Source of the DNA: a virus
IMG/VR virus record: IMGVR_UViG_3300007519_000052
Span: 1-29,609 of that record
DNA length: 29,609 nt
Strand: one strand, 5' to 3'
A program made the position numbers and the translations under genes. The notes under the pieces were generated by a model that saw only the letters and a list, made by a program, of their open reading frames with translations, searched no databases and was not told the origin of the DNA. Positions 1 to 8,162 of this stretch are shown piece after piece (the stretch's first letter is position 1; each line of letters starts with the position of its first letter).

Positions 1-1
1 A

Positions 2-844
2 GATGATACTATCATTGAGCATACAGAGCAAGTTCTGCGAGCTATGTCAGCTGCAGGCTATGCGATTGTCATTGGTACCGCGCGCCCTGATGAAAACGGC
101 TACAAGGCTGCTACGATTGAGTGGCTACGTCGTCACGACATCCCCTACGATGCTATCTATATGCGCGCGGGCGGAGACTACCGTAAAGACTCGATCGTAA
201 AGGTTGAACTGCTGGAGCAAATGCTTGAAGACGGATGGGACATCCAGTTCGCGCTGGATGATCGCGACGGGGTTGTCCGCGCATTCCGCGACTATGGTCT
301 GCCTGTTTTACAGGTAAACGATGGAGACTTCGATAAGAACAAAACATCACGGTATGCAAAAGACAACCAAGGTAAGGTTCTGCTGGATATTATGGTTGGG
401 CCTTCAGGTTCTGGTAAGTCTACCTACATTGAAAAGAACTACAAGCTATCTGATGTCGTATCGTCAGATGCAGTTCGCGATCAACTGTTTGGTGCACACA
501 CTGATGGACGCGGACATGCTCCAGATGAACTGGCTCGTACTTGGTCGTACGTGCACAGCCTGGTAAAAGCTCGTCTCGATCACGGTGTGTTTACAGTACT
601 GGATGCAACGAACCTTCGTAAAAAGGATCGTACAGCTGTGCTGGATCAACTGCCTAAAGGTGTACTGGCGCGATACGTTGTAATCGACCGTATGTATGAT
701 GACAAACTGAAGACTCGTGGGTGGCGCCCCGAGACTCTGATCGCGAAGCATCATCAGACGTTCAAAGCAACGGTCAAAGAAGTCCTAAAAGGTGATGGTC
801 ACCCATACGTGATTGTTTCAGATCAGCGCGAGCATAAGATTTGA
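2..844 (+). CDS. pseT: Polynucleotide 5'-kinase/3'-phosphatase-like protein (5' end outside window)
   Basis: Open from the left edge; the first in-frame ATG is at 44 but the frame and the homology continue upstream, so the gene is truncated by the window. Counting from that ATG, residues 1-96 look like the second half of a HAD phosphatase related to the T4 Pnkp phosphatase: TARP near 12, GDYRKD (44-49), the acidic DDR motif (72-74) and the closing NDGDF. Residues 115-260 form a P-loop kinase with Walker A GPSGSGKST (119-127), then SSDAVRD and LDATN, as in nucleic-acid kinases. Inferred role: healing of cleaved tRNA or DNA ends. The domain order is phosphatase then kinase, the reverse of T4 Pnkp. 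Its TGA overlaps the TTG start of the next gene. The metal-nucleophile DxD motif of the phosphatase would lie outside the window. Confidence 0.85.
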   Translation, partial: DDTIIEHTEQVLRAMSAAGYAIVIGTARPDENGYKAATIEWLRRHDIPYDAIYMRAGGDYRKDSIVKVELLEQMLEDGWDIQFALDDRDGVVRAFRDYGLPVLQVNDGDFDKNKTSRYAKDNQGKVLLDIMVGPSGSGKSTYIEKNYKLSDVVSSDAVRDQLFGAHTDGRGHAPDELARTWSYVHSLVKARLDHGVFTVLDATNLRKKDRTAVLDQLPKGVLARYVVIDRMYDDKLKTRGWRPETLIAKHHQTFKATVKEVLKGDGHPYVIVSDQREHKI

Positions 845-1191
845 AACCTACCGTAAAAAAGAAGCCGAACGACCAAAACGAAGAACTGTTCCTACTAAAA
901 ACAGGGACAGTTCTTTCTATTTCTACTGATAATGTTATGGTAGGAGTATACAACGACGGGCATTCATGGCGATTTAAAGCGCCTGAACATCTTAACATCT
1001 TTCCAAATTCGAAAGTTTTACTGTATCGGTATCATCTCGATACGGAACCTAACGTTAATGTTATGTTAGTAGTGAAAGATCTTGATCGCACCCACTCGTT
1101 TATTATCGGAGACGAAGGAGGTGGGGAATGTTTAATTAGATTCGGAGTAGAAAAGACTATTGAAGCTGATTTTTACAATCAACTACGATAA
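841..1191 (+). CDS. Hypothetical protein, 116 aa
   Basis: Not recognised. It begins with TTG at 841, overlapping the upstream TGA (TTGA); an in-frame TAA at 835-837 rules out an earlier start, and the next in-frame ATG would remove about 31 residues. The N-terminus is basic (KPTVKKKP); the middle has alternating hydrophobic beta-like segments (TGTVLSI, VMVGVYN, KVLLYRY, VNVMLVV), suggesting a small mostly-beta protein. No signal peptide or membrane helix is visible. The tight overlap suggests translational coupling to the kinase. The stop codon lies inside the late-promoter motif at 1187-1194. Confidence 0.6.
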   Translation: MKPTVKKKPNDQNEELFLLKTGTVLSISTDNVMVGVYNDGHSWRFKAPEHLNIFPNSKVLLYRYHLDTEPNVNVMLVVKDLDRTHSFIIGDEGGGECLIRFGVEKTIEADFYNQLR

Positions 1192-1194
1192 ATA
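1187..1194 (+). promoter_or_regulatory. T4-type late promoter (GATAAATA)
   Basis: GATAAATA matches the T4/cyanophage late promoter core (T/N)ATAAATA. It sits 38 bases before the ATG at 1233, giving a predicted start near 1200 and a short leader with an AAGGA ribosome site. Confidence 0.6.
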
Positions 1195-1232
1195 GAAGTA
1201 TGGCGAGATTGCCAAGTTAGAAGGAAAATACT

Positions 1233-2090
1233 ATGATACAAGTAACACCACGATATACGCTGGATATATGCATCAAAAGCAAACCAGTTACGAAATACAC
1301 AGCTCCCGAGACATCTGCTAAATGGATCGAAGGTCGAGCTAAATCACAATATACTATCAGACTACGTAATAATTCAACAGCTCGGGCACTTTTTGTTGTG
1401 TCTGTTGATGGGCTATCAATTAATGATGGAAAACCAGCCGGAATAGATAGTACAGGATATATAGTCGATGCGTTTGGGACCGTTGAAGTACCGGGTTGGT
1501 CTGTTGACCTATACAGGGCAGCTTCATTTGAGTTTGGAGCTAGTCGTGGGTCTTATGCTGCATCTGTAGGTGAACCAGATAATATTGGTGTTATCGGATT
1601 GATGGTATTTACAGAGAAGTGTAATTACGAAAACAAGTTTCCAGACATAAGTGATTGGGTTTATAATCAACCGAGGATAGTACCACTAACCACTAACCCT
1701 AATCTTCCCTATTACGGTCACCCGCATTCTACACTTATGGGTGGGTATGCACAAAATACCATGACTGTGAGCGGTTCAGCAGCAGCCCCTAGAACTGCTA
1801 CCTTGAACGCTAGCATCTCAGCAACATCAGTCACTAACGCTGCTACAGATGGAACAAACACAGCTTCTCTCGGGACAAATTTCGGCAAGGCGGTTAATTT
1901 TCAAACACAAAAGACAAACTTCGAGAGAGCATCTAACAGGCCTGCTCTTACAGAAGCATTATACTATAGTGATGTAAAAGGCCTAAATAGCATTGGTATT
2001 GTGGTTGATTGGCAGAAGCCAATAGTTGCGGTACCAAATCCGTTCCCAGCTGATCCTGGGTTTTGTAACCCACCGGTTCATTGGAAATAA
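1233..2090 (+). CDS. Homologue of a bacterial conserved protein of unknown function, 285 aa
   Basis: Start is the ATG preceded by AAGGA about eight bases upstream. Residues 38-132 read like a family that I recall as common in proteobacterial genomes and annotated only as hypothetical: a beta-rich stretch with RLRNNS, VVSVDGLSINDG, GYIVDAFGTVEVPGW and DNIGVIGLMVF. The C-terminal region also fits that family: a low-complexity Ala/Thr/Ser linker (about 175-220), then SLGTNFG, TNFERASNRP and a final NSIGIVVDW segment. No signal peptide, membrane helix or known catalytic motif is seen. It has its own late promoter, so it is probably made during virion assembly or lysis; function is unknown. It could be a host-derived auxiliary gene. 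Family resemblance is from memory. Confidence 0.7.
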   Translation: MIQVTPRYTLDICIKSKPVTKYTAPETSAKWIEGRAKSQYTIRLRNNSTARALFVVSVDGLSINDGKPAGIDSTGYIVDAFGTVEVPGWSVDLYRAASFEFGASRGSYAASVGEPDNIGVIGLMVFTEKCNYENKFPDISDWVYNQPRIVPLTTNPNLPYYGHPHSTLMGGYAQNTMTVSGSAAAPRTATLNASISATSVTNAATDGTNTASLGTNFGKAVNFQTQKTNFERASNRPALTEALYYSDVKGLNSIGIVVDWQKPIVAVPNPFPADPGFCNPPVHWK

Positions 2091-2095
2091 CATAT

Positions 2096-2353
2096 ATGGA
2101 TTTCTACACTAATACTCAAGTTGTAAAATTAACAGAGCGTATGCAGATGCTTGAGGATGCACACGTAGCACAAACAGCTGAACTGAAGGATGTAGGAGAA
2201 AAACTATTAGAATGTTCGACCTATCTAATTAAGACTCTTCAAATTTTAGAACGCGTAGTGCCGATATTACCAACTGAAGATATACATCGTCAGGAACAAG
2301 ACTTTTCTTTAACAGATGCAATAATTGCACTTGAACATATACGGAAAGTATAG
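2096..2353 (+). CDS. Small coiled-coil-like protein, 85 aa
   Basis: The open frame begins with a TTG at 2081, but the ATG at 2096 with GGAAA ten bases upstream is the better start. Residues 8-60 have heptad-like hydrophobic spacing with many Glu/Lys (LTERMQMLEDAHV, ELKDVGEKLLE, LIKTLQILERV), suggesting one long helix or a coiled coil. No recognised family. It starts five bases after the stop of the preceding gene, so is probably co-transcribed from the promoter at 1187. The final codons contain the promoter of the downstream tmRNA. It loosely resembles in style the 65-residue protein at 28975, but I see no convincing alignment. Confidence 0.6.
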   Translation: MDFYTNTQVVKLTERMQMLEDAHVAQTAELKDVGEKLLECSTYLIKTLQILERVVPILPTEDIHRQEQDFSLTDAIIALEHIRKV

Positions 2354-2359
2354 TATAAT
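2331..2359 (+). promoter_or_regulatory. Sigma70-type promoter for the tmRNA gene
   Basis: TTGAAC at 2331-2336 and a perfect TATAAT at 2354-2359, separated by exactly 17 bases. The predicted transcript start is near 2366, just before the tmRNA acceptor piece. It lies in the end of the previous coding region. Unlike the structural genes, the tmRNA therefore appears to be read by unmodified host polymerase. Confidence 0.7.
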
Positions 2360-2448
2360 AGGTTATCAATAGGAATTTTCCGCCTATTGAATACGAGGAT
2401 TTTGAATAACTATTCTGGACCCGGACTGCGACGTCCGGCGCCTCCACC

Positions 2449-2517
2449 AAAGTCGGATATCAGCGCCGTAGAATCTCGGCCCAAGGTGATAGTGGTAGGA
2501 TAACCGTATCCGACTTT
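2449..2517 (+). repeat. Inverted repeat in the tmRNA intervening segment
   Basis: AAAGTCGGATA (2449-2459) is the exact reverse complement of TATCCGACTTT (2507-2517). In the precursor this 11-base-pair helix stacks beyond the acceptor stem, separated by a small internal loop (ACC opposite GAT), so precursor pieces are held together before 5' and 3' end maturation. Confidence 0.8.
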
Positions 2518-2614
2518 GATGGGGGCGAAATAGCATCGACAGGTGGCAAAAACAAAATCTAGGGAACGGTTAGATACACCGTAAATGTTCATTCTACTAA
2601 CTGGCAACTTAAAT

Positions 2615-2671
2615 GCAGCCAATGACAACCAAGTAGTGTACGCACGCCAGAGCCTAGCTCTAGCTGCTTAA
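2615..2671 (+). other. tmRNA proteolysis-tag reading frame
   Basis: Codons GCA to TAA encode AANDNQVVYARQSLALAA; the resume codon is either GCA at 2615 or GCC at 2618. The ANDN beginning is typical of alphaproteobacterial tags and the LALAA ending is the usual ClpXP-type degron. With 17-18 residues it is longer than the 10-residue E. coli tag. The end of the frame contains a small hairpin, AGAGC (2649-2653) with GCTCT (2657-2661). Confidence 0.9.
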
Positions 2672-2748
2672 CAAAAGGTAGTCGGAGTTTTTGGAAGTTT
2701 GTACTTAGCAACAGAAACAAACTACCACCATTTTTCTGGAGATATCAA

Positions 2749-2964
2749 ATGCCGTATTTTAAGTTTGGATTTCCATGGACACTCAAAGAGTCGATTATAT
2801 CTATTATTGAAGTTATTTGCGTATATTTCTGTACGATTATAATTCTCGGTGTGATAATATGCATAGGGGTTATAGGTGTATTAATTTACATCGGATGTAT
2901 GAGTTTAATATATGCATGGTTCTTCTGTGAAGAGATTATTAACAATATACGATATAGACGATAG
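2749..2964 (+). CDS. Small membrane protein, 71 aa
   Basis: ATG follows a GGAG ribosome site (2738-2741). After a short N-terminal stretch (residues 1-13) come two very hydrophobic segments, roughly residues 15-37 and 38-60, rich in Ile, Val and Cys, and then a charged C-terminus ending RYRR. Two membrane helices are predicted by eye, with the basic tail likely cytoplasmic. No family recognised. Size and topology would allow a holin-like or membrane-modifying role, but the position beside gp33 and gp59 rather than lysis genes gives no support for that. Confidence 0.65.
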   Translation: MPYFKFGFPWTLKESIISIIEVICVYFCTIIILGVIICIGVIGVLIYIGCMSLIYAWFFCEEIINNIRYRR

Positions 2965-2995
2965 TAACAAAATACGTTTAATACAATGGTAATAT

Positions 2996-3208
2996 ATGGC
3001 AACAAGTAAACAAGAATTCTTAAAGGCTGTTTGGGCACTTATCAACACAACAGATACCTGTGCATTCGATGCAATACTGGATGTATCAAATCGATATGGT
3101 GTAGATGCACAGACGGTTGCGAAACTAGTAAATTCAGACGGACCTCTTAAAGCGCTTATACAACAGCGCGCTGTCGAATTAAATATTATCAAACTAGTTG
3201 ATGTCTGA
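2996..3208 (+). CDS. gp33: Late transcription coactivator, gp33-like
   Basis: A 70-residue acidic/helical protein. The pattern FLKAVWALIN, then AFDAILDVSNRYGVDAQTVAKLV, then LKALIQQRAVELNII resembles the short gp33 proteins that I recall from cyanophages of the T4 group, and the gene order gp33-gp59-gp32 fits. In T4, gp33 links host RNA polymerase to the gp45 sliding clamp and, with sigma factor gp55, directs transcription from late promoters such as those seen in this window. The T4 protein is longer (about 112 residues). No strong ribosome site is visible. Its TGA overlaps the start of gp59, implying coupled translation. The assignment rests on pattern and context only. Confidence 0.65.
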   Translation: MATSKQEFLKAVWALINTTDTCAFDAILDVSNRYGVDAQTVAKLVNSDGPLKALIQQRAVELNIIKLVDV

Positions 3209-3782
3209 TCTTGACCCGTTCGGCGCCTCTTTACTATTTAAAGCTGTAAAGTTACATTTTACTTCTGAGAAGTATGATTATATAAAATATCACGGGAAAG
3301 TATCCGGAGACTCTATTGCGGCCAAGCAAAAGTTCTCCTATAATAAGCAACGGTACTTCTTCGGTAAGCTTGGCCGCCACAAAAATCCAGAACTACTACT
3401 AGTAGCTAATATGCTACACAACCCTAAATGCTTCGTTACTGATGTAATAGAAGATGAGGGGATCGCTCGATATGAAGCGTTAGTAGCAAGAGCTGCATCA
3501 AGATACTATAGACTCGAACAAGACTTATTAATATTCGAGTCTATAAAAGAACTGTTGAATATAGACGATCTTCCGCCTATAATTAACAAGTATATCTCTG
3601 ACGAGATCACTGCAGAGTCTATTGTATTAATCGACTCTGTAACAAAAATACTTGATAGGGTTGACGAACAGTCACATCCTCTTGTTGAAAAACATTTACT
3701 TAAGTTGCGCAAATATAGATCATTTGTACAAATAGATGTAAACCGAGTAAAAGCCATCTTTGAAAAGCGATGGTCACACTAA
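3201..3782 (+). CDS. gp59: Replicative helicase loader, gp59
   Basis: I choose the ATG at 3201 (a TTG lies one codon upstream); it overlaps the previous stop by eight bases. The 193-residue protein follows T4 gp59 along its length: KAVKLHFTSEKYDYIKYHGKV matches the T4 segment around KYDVIKYNW (up to residue 31), KQRYFFGKL (about 49-57) matches KYFFQKL, and ELLLVANMLHNPKCFVTDV, LIDSVTKILDRVDEQ and LKLRKYRSFVQID follow in order. In T4, gp59 binds forked DNA and gp32 and loads helicase gp41. Placing it directly before gp32, its partner, supports the call. Basic, helical, no membrane segments. Confidence 0.9.
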   Translation: MSDLDPFGASLLFKAVKLHFTSEKYDYIKYHGKVSGDSIAAKQKFSYNKQRYFFGKLGRHKNPELLLVANMLHNPKCFVTDVIEDEGIARYEALVARAASRYYRLEQDLLIFESIKELLNIDDLPPIINKYISDEITAESIVLIDSVTKILDRVDEQSHPLVEKHLLKLRKYRSFVQIDVNRVKAIFEKRWSH

Positions 3783-3855
3783 ATAATATGCCCTAGAGGT
3801 GAACACTAATCGTTATATTATGTATTTCCGTGGATAAATTAAAAGGAAAATACAC

Positions 3856-4136
3856 ATGGTTGATTTCTCAACACTAAAAAAAGACCGTCAAAAAAGCTTC
3901 GATTCATTGACTCAGAAGCTTGCTTCCGGCAACAACAACAAACAAAAAGATGCACGATATTGGACTGTGACGCGAGACGCTGCAGGTAACGGATCCGCTA
4001 TTATTCGCTTTCTTCCAACATCGCCAGATGGTACTGAGCCATATGTAGTTACATATGATCACGGGTTCCAGGACCCCAAGACTGGTAAATACTATATCGA
4101 AAATTCTCTCAACACTATCGGACTATCCGATCCCGT
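3856..4136 (+). CDS. gp32: Single-stranded DNA binding protein gp32, exon 1
   Basis: The ATG is preceded by AAAGGA in an A-rich, weakly structured leader, as in T4 where gp32 represses its own translation from such a site. The 93 complete codons encode the basic N-terminal segment (LKKDRQKSFDSLTQKL; the LAST-like cooperativity region) and the start of the OB core: ARYWTVTRDAAGNGSAIIRFLPT, YDHGFQDPKTGKYYIENSLNTIGLSDP. The reading frame runs 22 bases further into an intron and stops at TAA 4156-4158. Exon 2 restores the protein: joining 4136 to 5433 makes GTT-AGT-GAG (Val-Ser-Glu), giving 296 residues in total, close to the 301 of T4. The Cys residues that bind zinc in T4 gp32 are missing here. 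Confidence 0.9.
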
Positions 4137-5432
4137 TAACCACACACTAGCGGCTTAATAGGGTAACCTATTTCGAAAAACATTGTGAATTGCTGGGAAG
4201 ACTAAGTTAAAGAACTCTAAATAGTACTGACATAAACACAGGGGTGTGGAAAATGCAGTACACTAATAAACATAAACACTTTAAAGTATTAGAAACTATA
4301 AAGACTAAGAAAGGGAACATCAAACGAGGAGAGTTTTATTGTATCTTGAATAATAAAACATACAACACGCTAGGAGGCTATAGAAACGGTATTCGACATA
4401 CAGGATTTACAGTGCGTCAAATATATGACACATATTATAAGACACCTGAAGAGGGGTATTGTATGGGATGTCAAAATGAAACTAAGTTTTCCAACATAGT
4501 TGTCGGATATCTTAAATGGTGTTCTGATAAATGCTATTTAAAATCAGATAAACACAGAGCAATTGTTTCAGCGAAATTTAATAACTCGCCCGAAGTGTTA
4601 GAAAACTTTCGCAAAACTCGTAGAAAATGGCTTATTTCTTTATCAGAAACAGACAAAAAAAGGATACACGATAAAAGAGTTAATACTTTGCGTGTTAAAT
4701 ACGGAGAAGATTATTTTAATCATTTGGCTAAACGCGCCAATATATTATGGCAAAGTGCAGATATAGAAAAACGAAAGGCCACATACGCCAAAGGAGTTGA
4801 AACCCGACGAAAAAACGGCACCCTACAACATAGATTATGTAACGGTCGAAACAAAAATATTATTATTAACAATAGCTCGTATACGGTTCAGGGGTTTGAA
4901 GATGCCTTTTTGCTGTACTGTGTAGAAAAACAAATCGAATTTGTATTAGGTGATGATATGCCTACTATAATTAGACCAAGTGTTAAAAGTGGACTTTTTG
5001 TTCCCGACTTTTATTTGCCAGAATATAATTTAATAGTTGATATTAAGAGTAATTGGACATATAATTGTGATGGTATATCTAATCTCTTGGATAAACAAAA
5101 ATGCGTTCACGCAATGGGTTATAACTGCATATTTATTATAGTTAAAACCCTAACGAAAAAGATCAATGACAACACACCCCGAGCCTTTTTGTCAAATGAT
5201 CTTAAAGAGATAAATGAGTTCTTTAATATGTTAATCAGCAGCCAAGCCCCAAAAAGTAAAGGGAAGGTTCAACGACTATCTGAGGAATCAGAGTACACTC
5301 TAAACGCGATTGGGAGTGGAAGTACAATGGATCCAACACAAAATTGGATCGTGATATAGTCTGATCTTATAGGAAACTATAAGCTGGAGTAATTTCCGGG
5401 GATATACTAGCGATATATCTCGAACATAAATG
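4137..5432 (+). other. Group I self-splicing intron in gp32
   Basis: The exon boundary is fixed by three features: exon 1 ends in CCGT, intron ends in G (ATG, 5430-5432), and the spliced frame restores DPVSELN. P1: CCGU (4133-4136) pairs with GCGG (4150-4153) with a U-G pair at the splice site. P10: UAGUG of exon 2 (5433-5437) pairs with CACUA (4145-4149). Core elements: P-like AATTGCTGGGAA (4188-4199), R-like GTTCAACGACTA (5267-5278), S-like TATAGTC (5355-5361) with P7 GACTA/TAGTC, P8 hairpin TCTGA-GGAA-TCAGA (5279-5292), P9 hairpin CTTATAG-GAAA-CTATAAG (5366-5383). It carries an endonuclease gene whose 3' end overlaps the core. Confidence 0.9.
4253..5359 (+). CDS. Intron-encoded PD-(D/E)XK-like homing endonuclease
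   Basis: I place the start at ATG 4253, seven bases after AGGGGTG; an in-frame GTG at 4244 is less likely. The 368-residue protein is Lys/Arg-rich. Residues about 66-88 hold a possible zinc ribbon, CMGCQN then WCSDKCY. The middle (100-200) is basic and helical with repeated RxxxxK patterns. The catalytic-looking part follows: GFEDAFLLYC, then VPDFYLPEYNLIVDIKS, which matches the PD..(D/E)xK nuclease signature (PD, then D-I-K). Inferred role: cutting intron-less gp32 alleles to spread the intron. The last 30 codons are also the intron core (R, P8, S), and the TAG stop lies inside the S element. Family placement beyond PD-(D/E)XK is not certain; EDxHD/Vsr-like is possible. Confidence 0.8.
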   Translation: MQYTNKHKHFKVLETIKTKKGNIKRGEFYCILNNKTYNTLGGYRNGIRHTGFTVRQIYDTYYKTPEEGYCMGCQNETKFSNIVVGYLKWCSDKCYLKSDKHRAIVSAKFNNSPEVLENFRKTRRKWLISLSETDKKRIHDKRVNTLRVKYGEDYFNHLAKRANILWQSADIEKRKATYAKGVETRRKNGTLQHRLCNGRNKNIIINNSSYTVQGFEDAFLLYCVEKQIEFVLGDDMPTIIRPSVKSGLFVPDFYLPEYNLIVDIKSNWTYNCDGISNLLDKQKCVHAMGYNCIFIIVKTLTKKINDNTPRAFLSNDLKEINEFFNMLISSQAPKSKGKVQRLSEESEYTLNAIGSGSTMDPTQNWIVI

Positions 5433-6042
5433 TAGTGAGTTAAACACACGCCTGTGGAGTGAAAGACAAAAAGATCAAGTCCGTCGCCAAAAGCGTCGTG
5501 TCAAGTATCACGCGAACATCCTCGTAATAAAGGATCCAAGCAATACAGATAACGAGGGGAAAGTATTCTTATTCTCCTTCGGTAAGAAGATTCTGGAAAA
5601 GCTAACGGACGTTATGCAAAAGACAGATGATCTTGACGATGAGACGAAGTTTAACCCCTTCGATATGTGGGATGGTGCGAACTTCAGACTTCGCGTCGCA
5701 ATGGTAGATGAATATCCAAACTACGACAAGTCAAAGTTTGATGCTCCGTCACCAATCGCAACCGAAGACGATGAGATTGAGCGCCTATGGCGTACCTCAC
5801 ATGAGCTAGCGTTCCTAACAGATAAGGAATCGTTTAAATCATATGAAGAGCTTCAGAAGCGTATGAACGATGTACTCGGCCTTAGGCCTTCTGAGGGTGT
5901 ATCAACACCGAAGTCTATAGTAGACGACAATGAGATTCCAGATTTCACGAAGTCCACTGCAGATCTAGTCCGCAACCCAGCAGACGATGCTGAAGAAGAA
6001 GATCTCGATAAGTGGCTCAAAGAGCTAGGTAACGCTGATTAA
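5433..6042 (+). CDS. gp32: Single-stranded DNA binding protein gp32, exon 2
   Basis: Continues exon 1 from the third base of the Val codon. It reads SELNTRLW, then the basic RRQKRRVKYHANILVIKDP and NEGKVFLFSFGKKI, which match T4 gp32 (YWANILVVKDP, NEGKVFKYRFGKKI), then FDMWDGANFRLRV, NYDKSKFDAPS and KESFKSYEELQKRM. This is the second half of the OB-fold DNA-binding core. The C-terminal about 45 residues are acidic (DDAEEEDLDKWL), the tail that in T4 contacts the polymerase, primase and gp59. An isolated reading would start only at the internal ATG 5614, which is not a real start because homology extends upstream to 5434. A terminator follows directly. Confidence 0.9.
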
Positions 6043-6043
6043 G

Positions 6044-6070
6044 AAAAAGCCCGCGAAAGCGGGCTTTTTT
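6044..6070. terminator. Bidirectional intrinsic terminator
   Basis: GCCCGC (6049-6054) and GCGGGC (6059-6064) form a six-base-pair stem with a GAAA loop, flanked by five A's on the left and six T's on the right. It serves gp32 on the plus strand and the tape-measure gene, whose stop lies at 6069-6071, on the minus strand. Confidence 0.9.
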
Positions 6071-8162
6071 ATACTCTAACACCAGTAGGAGTAGCTCCAG
6101 GATCTGCAGCAGGTGGCCGAGCACGTGTAATCGTATTATTCTGATTATTAATAGTGTGGTTAACTGCCATTGGAGCATGTGTCACCACTGCAGGTTGTAC
6201 AGGGGGCGGAGCCATATTTGCAGCTGAACGACGCAGAGCCGCTGTGTTAGCGTCAACACGCGCTGTACTAGCTGGTGCAATAGGTCTTGCGGCTGGGCTT
6301 GCTGGTTGCTGTGATTGATTAGGCGCCACTGCACGTAGTACTGCAGGAACATATGCACGCGACTCAGCAGGCATATACGATAGCCAGTCGCCACCCTGAC
6401 GTCCAGCTCTTTGTATTGCTGAGTCGACACGGCCAGGGCCACCGTTATAAGCTGCGAGTGTTTTTCGAATGTCTCCATTATACTTACGGAAGAGAGCTGT
6501 TAAGTAGTCACGCCCGACACGTTCACGCTCAGCGTGACTATTATCTCTAGCTGGTCTAACACCGTATCCGGGATCACGATTCGTTGCATCCATAACTTGC
6601 ATTCGACCCCGGGCACCCTTCGGAGAAACTGCATTAGTGTTACCTCTACTCTCAACGTGTATAACTGCGTTGATAAGCTCCGGAGTAAGTCCTTGAATAC
6701 CAGCTGCTTGAACTGCATTCGCTCCTTGTTGTCGTGCACGGCCTGCGGCTGCTTGTCCGGGGTTTAATCCAGCTGAAGGAGCCGCTGGCCCGCTGATATG
6801 TTGAGCTGAAGGAGCTGCCGCTCCGGCGGCGACACTAGGGCGAGCTGAAGGTGCATCTCGATTAAATATATCCGGTATAGATACACCTGTAAGATTTTTA
6901 ACAACGAATGCGCAGATATCAAAGAATGTTTTTGCTAGCATCTCTCCGAGGTTTGCCATACTCTTTACAGGGTCGAACTTATCAACCATTCCCCCGATCG
7001 TCTTATCCCACCACTTCCCAAGATTAAAATCTCTCAGAGTTTCAGCAAGTTTCTGGAATCCTAATAGCTCAAGAATACCTGTCGCGGCTCCTTTTAGAAG
7101 TTGTAATATCATTTTAGGTATTTCGAGTAAGCCTTTTAGAATACCTTGCATAGCGCCATCAAGGCCGCCCGCGAGCTTCTTCCAAATAGGTCCGTCAGTA
7201 CTTCCCCACCCTTTAAAGAACCCCATGACGCCGTCTATAACTGCCATTATAACAGTTGTCACGATTGCGAATCTTCCGATAATTCGACCAAATCCTTTGA
7301 TGATGCCGCCTAATGGTCCGAGCGCTTTTCCGAGCCCTGCTCCGATTTTTGCGAACGAGGAGCCTAATCTATCAAGCCCTGGTATCCTTGGCATCTTAGG
7401 TAGTTTAATTCCCTTAAACATACCAGTTATCATACCCATCAGCTTACCAAATTGAAGAGCAATGGCAGGCCCCAACAAAGCAAGTCCTCGAGTAAAGAAT
7501 CCTTTGAACTTACCTATGAATCCACGTGCGAGAGTCATTAGCATAGACAAAATACCACTCTTACTTGTTGGGGTACCTTCTAACAGACTCTCATTAGTCT
7601 CGGTCCCCATTCTTTCAGCCTTCTCGTGTGATTTATCTCCACGCATTTGTGCCTTATAGAGTGAAACAAGCTCCGAGGTATTTCCTGTTGTTTGAGCTTG
7701 TTCAGCATTTACACTACTTGTAGTTCTATTCAAAGATTCTACAGACCTACGTATATTGCGCAGCTCATCCGTCATTCCTGCCATAGTGGATTGCATAGCA
7801 GCTACGATAATTTTAAGACCGGACGTACCTTCATTTGCATTGTTTGTAGATGGATTTGTACCGTTGCCGTCAAATCTATTATCAGAGAACCCTCCCGCAT
7901 TAGGGTCTTTGATATAGTCATAGTTCCCCTTAAAGTCAAGTATTTTATTACCGAGTGGTGATGCTGATAGCAGATTGAATGCCATTTGCTTTGGAGTAAA
8001 CTGACGAGCTTTCCATGATATTGTATCAAGTGCTGGTTGCATAAATGTTCGGAACAACGCTTTAGCCGCAACATTTTTAACCTTCGGAGTTCCACCGGGG
8101 TTTGTTACATCTTCGTATCTATCGAAAGACATGCGGGGGAATTTAGGTGCGTCGTTCAGCAT
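6069..8162 (-). CDS. Tape-measure/baseplate hub protein with lytic transglycosylase domain
   Basis: A 697-residue protein at the position of T4 gp29 (tail length determinator) next to gp26 and gp54. Residues 200-430 are Gly-rich with several hydrophobic or amphipathic helices (about 222-250, 290-316, 340-370, 407-424), typical of tape measures that must insert in membranes. Residues 436-480 are an Ala/Pro/Ser linker. Residues 490-612 form an SLT lytic transglycosylase: HVES with catalytic-type Glu504, GARGRMQVM (usual GLMQ with Arg in place of Leu) and AAYNGGPG (570-577). A C-terminal Pro/Ala-rich tail follows. Inferred role: sets tail length and locally cuts peptidoglycan during infection. 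The ATG overlaps the end of the frameshift extension of the upstream gene. The stop codon lies inside the terminator. Confidence 0.8.
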   Translation of the reverse strand: MLNDAPKFPRMSFDRYEDVTNPGGTPKVKNVAAKALFRTFMQPALDTISWKARQFTPKQMAFNLLSASPLGNKILDFKGNYDYIKDPNAGGFSDNRFDGNGTNPSTNNANEGTSGLKIIVAAMQSTMAGMTDELRNIRRSVESLNRTTSSVNAEQAQTTGNTSELVSLYKAQMRGDKSHEKAERMGTETNESLLEGTPTSKSGILSMLMTLARGFIGKFKGFFTRGLALLGPAIALQFGKLMGMITGMFKGIKLPKMPRIPGLDRLGSSFAKIGAGLGKALGPLGGIIKGFGRIIGRFAIVTTVIMAVIDGVMGFFKGWGSTDGPIWKKLAGGLDGAMQGILKGLLEIPKMILQLLKGAATGILELLGFQKLAETLRDFNLGKWWDKTIGGMVDKFDPVKSMANLGEMLAKTFFDICAFVVKNLTGVSIPDIFNRDAPSARPSVAAGAAAPSAQHISGPAAPSAGLNPGQAAAGRARQQGANAVQAAGIQGLTPELINAVIHVESRGNTNAVSPKGARGRMQVMDATNRDPGYGVRPARDNSHAERERVGRDYLTALFRKYNGDIRKTLAAYNGGPGRVDSAIQRAGRQGGDWLSYMPAESRAYVPAVLRAVAPNQSQQPASPAARPIAPASTARVDANTAALRRSAANMAPPPVQPAVVTHAPMAVNHTINNQNNTITRARPPAADPGATPTGVRV

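Follow-up and report, generated by a model that had tools for sequence, protein, structure and literature searches.

What does a circularly permuted tmRNA gene do in a phage, and how firmly can it be recognised as one? tmRNA frees ribosomes that have become stuck and marks their products for destruction. A first-pass annotation of the window (the whole stretch of DNA analysed here, a 29,609-base viral record of a T4-like myophage) had claimed a permuted, two-piece tmRNA near its left end and had proposed that the phage may use it to replace or redirect host ribosome rescue. The phage origin is borne out by T4-type baseplate, tail-tube, gp2, gp4, gp33, gp59 and gp32 families in the window. Near relatives of the window proteins were found solely in contigs of the same phage, and none in the phage collection. 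The features of the locus are collected in Table 1.

Table 1. Features of the tmRNA locus and of the genes that follow it (window coordinates).
Feature	Position	Strand	Basis or remark
Candidate sigma-70-like promoter	2331..2359	+	TTGAAC 2331-2336, 17-bp spacer, TATAAT 2354-2359; consensus match 10/12
Predicted leader hairpin, 8 bp, TCAATAGG/CCTATTGA	2366..2390	+	Precursor 5' end; MFE and centroid folds
Acceptor RNA piece (3' half of tRNA-like domain)	2391..2449	+	Covariance match, folds; 5' boundary putative
P2, 5' strand	2397-2404	+	In acceptor piece
T-arm	2421-2438	+	In acceptor piece
Acceptor strand CGCCTCC	2439-2445	+	Followed by A 2446 and encoded CCA 2447-2449
Spacer between halves, 71 nt	2450..2520	+	Presumably cut out; folding, pairing statistics
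Spacer helix, 11 bp	2450-2460 with 2506-2516	+	Closes spacer
UGAU	2517-2520	+	Spacer end, directly 5' of G1
Coding RNA piece (5' half of tRNA-like domain and mRNA-like domain)	2521..2726	+	alpha_tmRNA match ends at 2726; 3' boundary putative
Acceptor strand GGGGGCG	2521-2527	+	Starts at G1; in coding piece
P2, 3' strand	2553-2560	+	In coding piece
PK1 hairpin (one PK1 stem)	2566-2570/2578-2582	+	MFE fold
Tag reading frame ANDNQVVYARQSLALAA and TAA, 17 aa	2618..2671	+	TAA at 2669-2671
3' domain element GCAACAGAAAC	2708-2718	+	In coding piece
gp33-like late-transcription coactivator	2996..3208	+	PF16805 26.1 bits (cut-off 25); phrog_254 E 3e-4
gp59-like helicase loader	3198..3782	+	phrog_269 E 2.6e-33
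gp32-like ssDNA-binding protein gene, intron-like insertion inside	3856..6042	+	phrog_224 matches both parts

Identity and structure of the tmRNA gene

An Infernal search with Rfam covariance models, the check that the first-pass annotation had suggested, matched alpha_tmRNA (RF01849) at 2327-2726 on the plus strand (90.8 bits, E 1.1e-23) and tmRNA_permuted (RF04321) over the same positions (79.3 bits, E 7e-14). Both matches span the full model length and lie above the gathering cut-offs (50 and 47 bits, respectively), which rules out chance. Because the 404-base tmRNA stretch recurs at 100% identity in two further contigs (L054 and L125), an assembly error of a single contig does not account for it. 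ARAGORN did not call the locus when run on the window, likely because the T-arm has 18 nt and not 17. Thus, the window carries a circularly permuted tmRNA of alphaproteobacterial type in a phage, presumably made as two separate RNA pieces, as judged from the sequence.

The predicted structure agrees with this assignment. As the annotation had noted, the CCA-bearing end (2439-2449) lies ahead of the GGGGGCG end (2521-2527), and all 7 of the 7 acceptor-stem (P1) positions are paired, with G3-U70 (G-T in the DNA), the identity pair for alanyl-tRNA synthetase, at position 3. Unconstrained folding yields P1, the T-arm, P2, the PK1 hairpin and the spacer helix, the proposed P2 pairing being part of the minimum-energy fold; fold z-scores were −3.2 and −3.6, and no shuffle folded as well. 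The ANDN...LALAA tag frame was read as expected at 2618-2668, with an alanine start, a hydrophobic end and a stop codon. The resume codon is most likely GCC at 2618, GCA one codon upstream (2615) being possible. At the 5' side, the Rfam alpha_tmRNA alignment puts its own 5' hairpin at the leader hairpin. The sigma-70-like promoter is plausible by its position just upstream of the tmRNA; promoter-like sites in the region are no more numerous than in shuffles.

The one irregular part is the T-arm. A standard T-arm has 5 bp and a 7-nt loop (17 nt), and the other tmRNAs examined mostly have 17 nt; the 18 nt of the window T-arm can form 6 bp with a 6-nt loop or 5 bp with an 8-nt loop. The gene is intact in all tested sequence features of alpha-type permuted tmRNAs except a regular T-arm. 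We therefore consider it highly probable that the locus is a functional alpha-type permuted tmRNA gene, predicted to belong to the gp33-gp59-gp32 module of a T4-like phage. Against a functional gene stand a score of 90.8 bits, below the chromosomal 143-313 bits; a T-arm one nucleotide over the standard; and an unsure place in the tree.

Could the RNA instead act as a decoy, binding SmpB or ribosomes, tagging incompletely and so inhibiting host trans-translation? Mycobacteriophage DS6A has a tRNA-like domain without a tag, for which such a role was proposed, and a molecule similar to that domain strongly inhibits tmRNA (PMC4131195); the irregular T-arm would fit as well. A decoy, however, needs no tag frame, stop, conserved ends, P2 or PK1 hairpin, all of which are kept here, and we judge this explanation quite improbable.

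The spacer helix

How are the two halves held in the precursor? Among 35 distinct T4-type phage tmRNAs, 29 have at least 8 contiguous pairs that close the spacer at a fixed place beside CCA/G1, compared with 0.2% of shuffled spacers. In the 30 T4-type phage tmRNAs with a spacer of at least 29 nt, 89% of the cells in this register are paired, against 65% (maximum 69%) when partners were dealt anew and 38–58% when they were slid. The spacer helix, of 8-14 bp, covaries across phages and bacteria, and the Rfam models leave this region unpaired. We rejected the idea that the helix is specific to phages: bacterial genes share the register (78% of cells paired vs 57%), and their fourth pair is often a mismatch. 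UGAU precedes G1 in 28/35 phage genes and in 67/113 bacterial genes. Spacer length differs, with a median of 34 nt in alphaproteobacteria and of 86 nt in T4-type phages, compared with 71 nt in the window.

In the predicted precursor, the spacer helix continues through the NCCA/UGAU step into the acceptor stem as one long hairpin, and this hairpin probably offers the ends to processing enzymes. A pelagiphage-like subgroup (L012, L037, L065, L066, L088, L091, L106 and L123) has a spacer of 19-27 nt and no spacer helix; its readable tags have 10 aa, e.g., ANNNNFALAA and ANFNEYALAA.

Genomic setting and distribution among phages

The gp33-like gene is the first recognisable T4 gene downstream of the window tmRNA, and both gp33 and gp59 follow on the same strand, at +475 and +677 from G1. 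The gp32-like gene beyond them is split: its N-terminal part lies at 3856-4158, and its C-terminal part begins at about 5431 and ends at 6042. An endonuclease-like ORF (4244-5359) lies inside, and a group I intron match at 5125-5383 (46.2 bits, E 1.4e-9) is slightly below the cut-off of 50. The insertion is probably a group I intron with a homing endonuclease.

Is this placement general? A DNA similarity search with the tmRNA against 50,697 phage records gave no match; members of the family have to be sought with a covariance model or a motif. In viral contigs, an exact motif for the coding 5' end gave at least 120 matches. Among the matches listed, 72 loci were also ARAGORN tmRNAs, and a gp33, gp59 or gp32 homologue accompanied 48 of the 113 viral loci with a complete motif, in 48/48 cases downstream of the tmRNA and on the same strand. 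Where at least 4.5 kb of downstream sequence was present, 17 of 36 loci among the matches listed show the gp33/gp59/gp32 order; therefore, other phages keep the permuted tmRNA elsewhere. It adjoins tRNA clusters in Rhizobium phage RHph_I1_18 and Erythrobacter phage vB_EliS-L02. Stenotrophomonas phage vB_SmaS-DLP_6 (KU682439), with a gammaproteobacterial host, has an unannotated beta-type permuted tmRNA at about 102831-103060 (RF01850 103.7 bits, RF04321 136.8 bits), also beside a tRNA cluster. Tag ends are conserved among phage tmRNAs.

Two isolates, Melnitz and HTVC008M, show the tmRNA-gp33-gp59-gp32 order as well. In 2022, Buchholz et al. (PMC9004378) reported permuted tmRNAs in marine myophages, among them the two-piece tmRNA of phage Melnitz, which precedes the gene for the late-transcription coactivator gp33; 17/47 Melnitz-like contigs had a permuted tmRNA, and 53/133 distinct phage tmRNA structures were two-piece (PMC9004378). 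As of 2014, mycobacteriophages and Bacillus phage G were the only phages with ssrA in the tmRNA database (PMC4131195), in agreement with the annotation's view of phage tmRNAs as one-piece. The annotation's permuted tmRNA stood, but the implied novelty was not supported: the window tmRNA is a clear further example of the known phage two-piece tmRNAs and not the first.

Like the window, Melnitz (a Methylophilales phage, MZ577097) is a T4-like marine myophage. Its alpha-type permuted tmRNA (106.7 bits) lies immediately upstream of gp33 and gp59 in the same orientation and likewise shows a spacer helix and UGAU ahead of G1. Unlike the window, Melnitz has a spacer of 142 nt, the tag ANDNYVPVDYALAA and a glutamine riboswitch (RF01739) after the tmRNA; no such riboswitch matched at E≤1 in window positions 1-6100. 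Pelagibacter phage HTVC008M differs from the window in its 10-aa tag, ANFNEYALAA, and in two small ORFs between the tmRNA and gp33. Its alpha-type gene lies at 145103-145414 of NC_020484 (83.8 bits) and is absent from the annotation of that reference genome. The idea that HTVC008M has no tmRNA was rejected: ARAGORN was blank in the scanned part and Infernal found the gene. Surveys based on ARAGORN thus undercount phage tmRNAs. The small additions made here are the wide conservation of the gp33-gp59-gp32 placement, the HTVC008M copy missing from its annotation and, probably, a covarying spacer helix absent from Rfam. The permuted tmRNA is confirmed as a regular T4-like phage component tied to a fixed genomic place, which makes a role in infection testable in the cultured phages Melnitz and HTVC008M.

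Possible role and relation to bacterial genes

How might the tmRNA act during infection? A single precursor RNA would be made, probably from the gene's own host-type promoter, its halves held by the acceptor stem, P2 and the spacer helix, as sequence and covariation show. Host RNase P and other nucleases would free G1 and the CCA end to leave two base-paired pieces, and host AlaRS would charge the RNA with alanine through the G3-U70 pair observed in P1. With host SmpB and EF-Tu, the charged RNA would rescue ribosomes that have stalled on broken mRNAs; such mRNAs should abound while host mRNA is degraded. Products bearing QVVYARQSLALAA, of the ANDN...LALAA type, would be sent to ClpXP-type proteases of the host, and the phage would gain added ribosome recycling capacity. 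The proposal that the phage replaces or redirects host rescue is more than the data support: a search for SmpB in the window and 13 related records (14 in total, five of them complete phage genomes) found none, and the tag ends are the ordinary ANDN...LAA. With a tag of this usual type, redirected tagging is not indicated. The simpler reading is that the window tmRNA supplements the host rescue system.

We give least credence to a tmRNA that chiefly tags host proteins for amino-acid supply, or that serves a late-transcription switch before gp33. tmRNA tags any protein on a stalled ribosome, with no selectivity known to us, and co-location with gp33 may reflect shared transcription alone, although amino-acid recycling was proposed for the Melnitz tmRNA (PMC9004378) and the position upstream of gp33 is conserved.

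Where does the gene come from? An above-cut-off match was found in 131/142 alphaproteobacterial genomes. Chromosomal alphaproteobacterial tmRNAs (RF01849) share with the window gene the gene order, P1 with G3-U70, P2, the 3' GCAACAGAAAC element, the ANDN tag start and the register of the spacer helix. They differ in their standard 17-nt T-arm and in score, full single-copy matches reaching 143-313 bits, against 90.8 bits for the window gene and about 80-148 bits for T4-type phage loci. In a tree, phage and bacterial genes are strongly clustered, with 2 label changes vs 36 in shuffles, the host sample being incomplete. A single origin of phage tmRNAs, suggested by a first one-branch tree, was dropped when a wider bacterial sample gave two changes; in the wider-sample tree the deep branches lack resolution and the placement of the window gene is unsure.

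Could the window gene be a copy that was taken from a host not long ago and is now decaying, with its function lost? The covariance score, low compared with bacteria, and the irregular T-arm would agree with decay. Yet no tested identity or frame feature is damaged, many diverged phages carry the same locus, and the sampled bacterial genes include no near relative, which makes such a copy very improbable. The functional gene thus stays the favoured reading, and the separate grouping of phage and bacterial tmRNAs argues for long-term maintenance in phages. We suggest only tentatively, at well short of an even chance, that the permuted tmRNA is an old, vertically kept, phage-specific lineage in the core gp33-gp59-gp32 module of a large group of T4-like phages, distinct from the genes of present hosts and with the spacer helix as a processing element. 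If so, the recurring module would suggest that phages are selected to control ribosome rescue themselves at the switch from early to late.

A second, divergent alpha_tmRNA (72.8 bits) was seen at L289, about 8510-8850 on contig C5 of alphaproteobacterial genome G151, which also has a normal alpha_tmRNA (235.7 bits). The divergent copy is flanked by ORFs resembling phage portal and capsid genes and is probably a prophage tmRNA.
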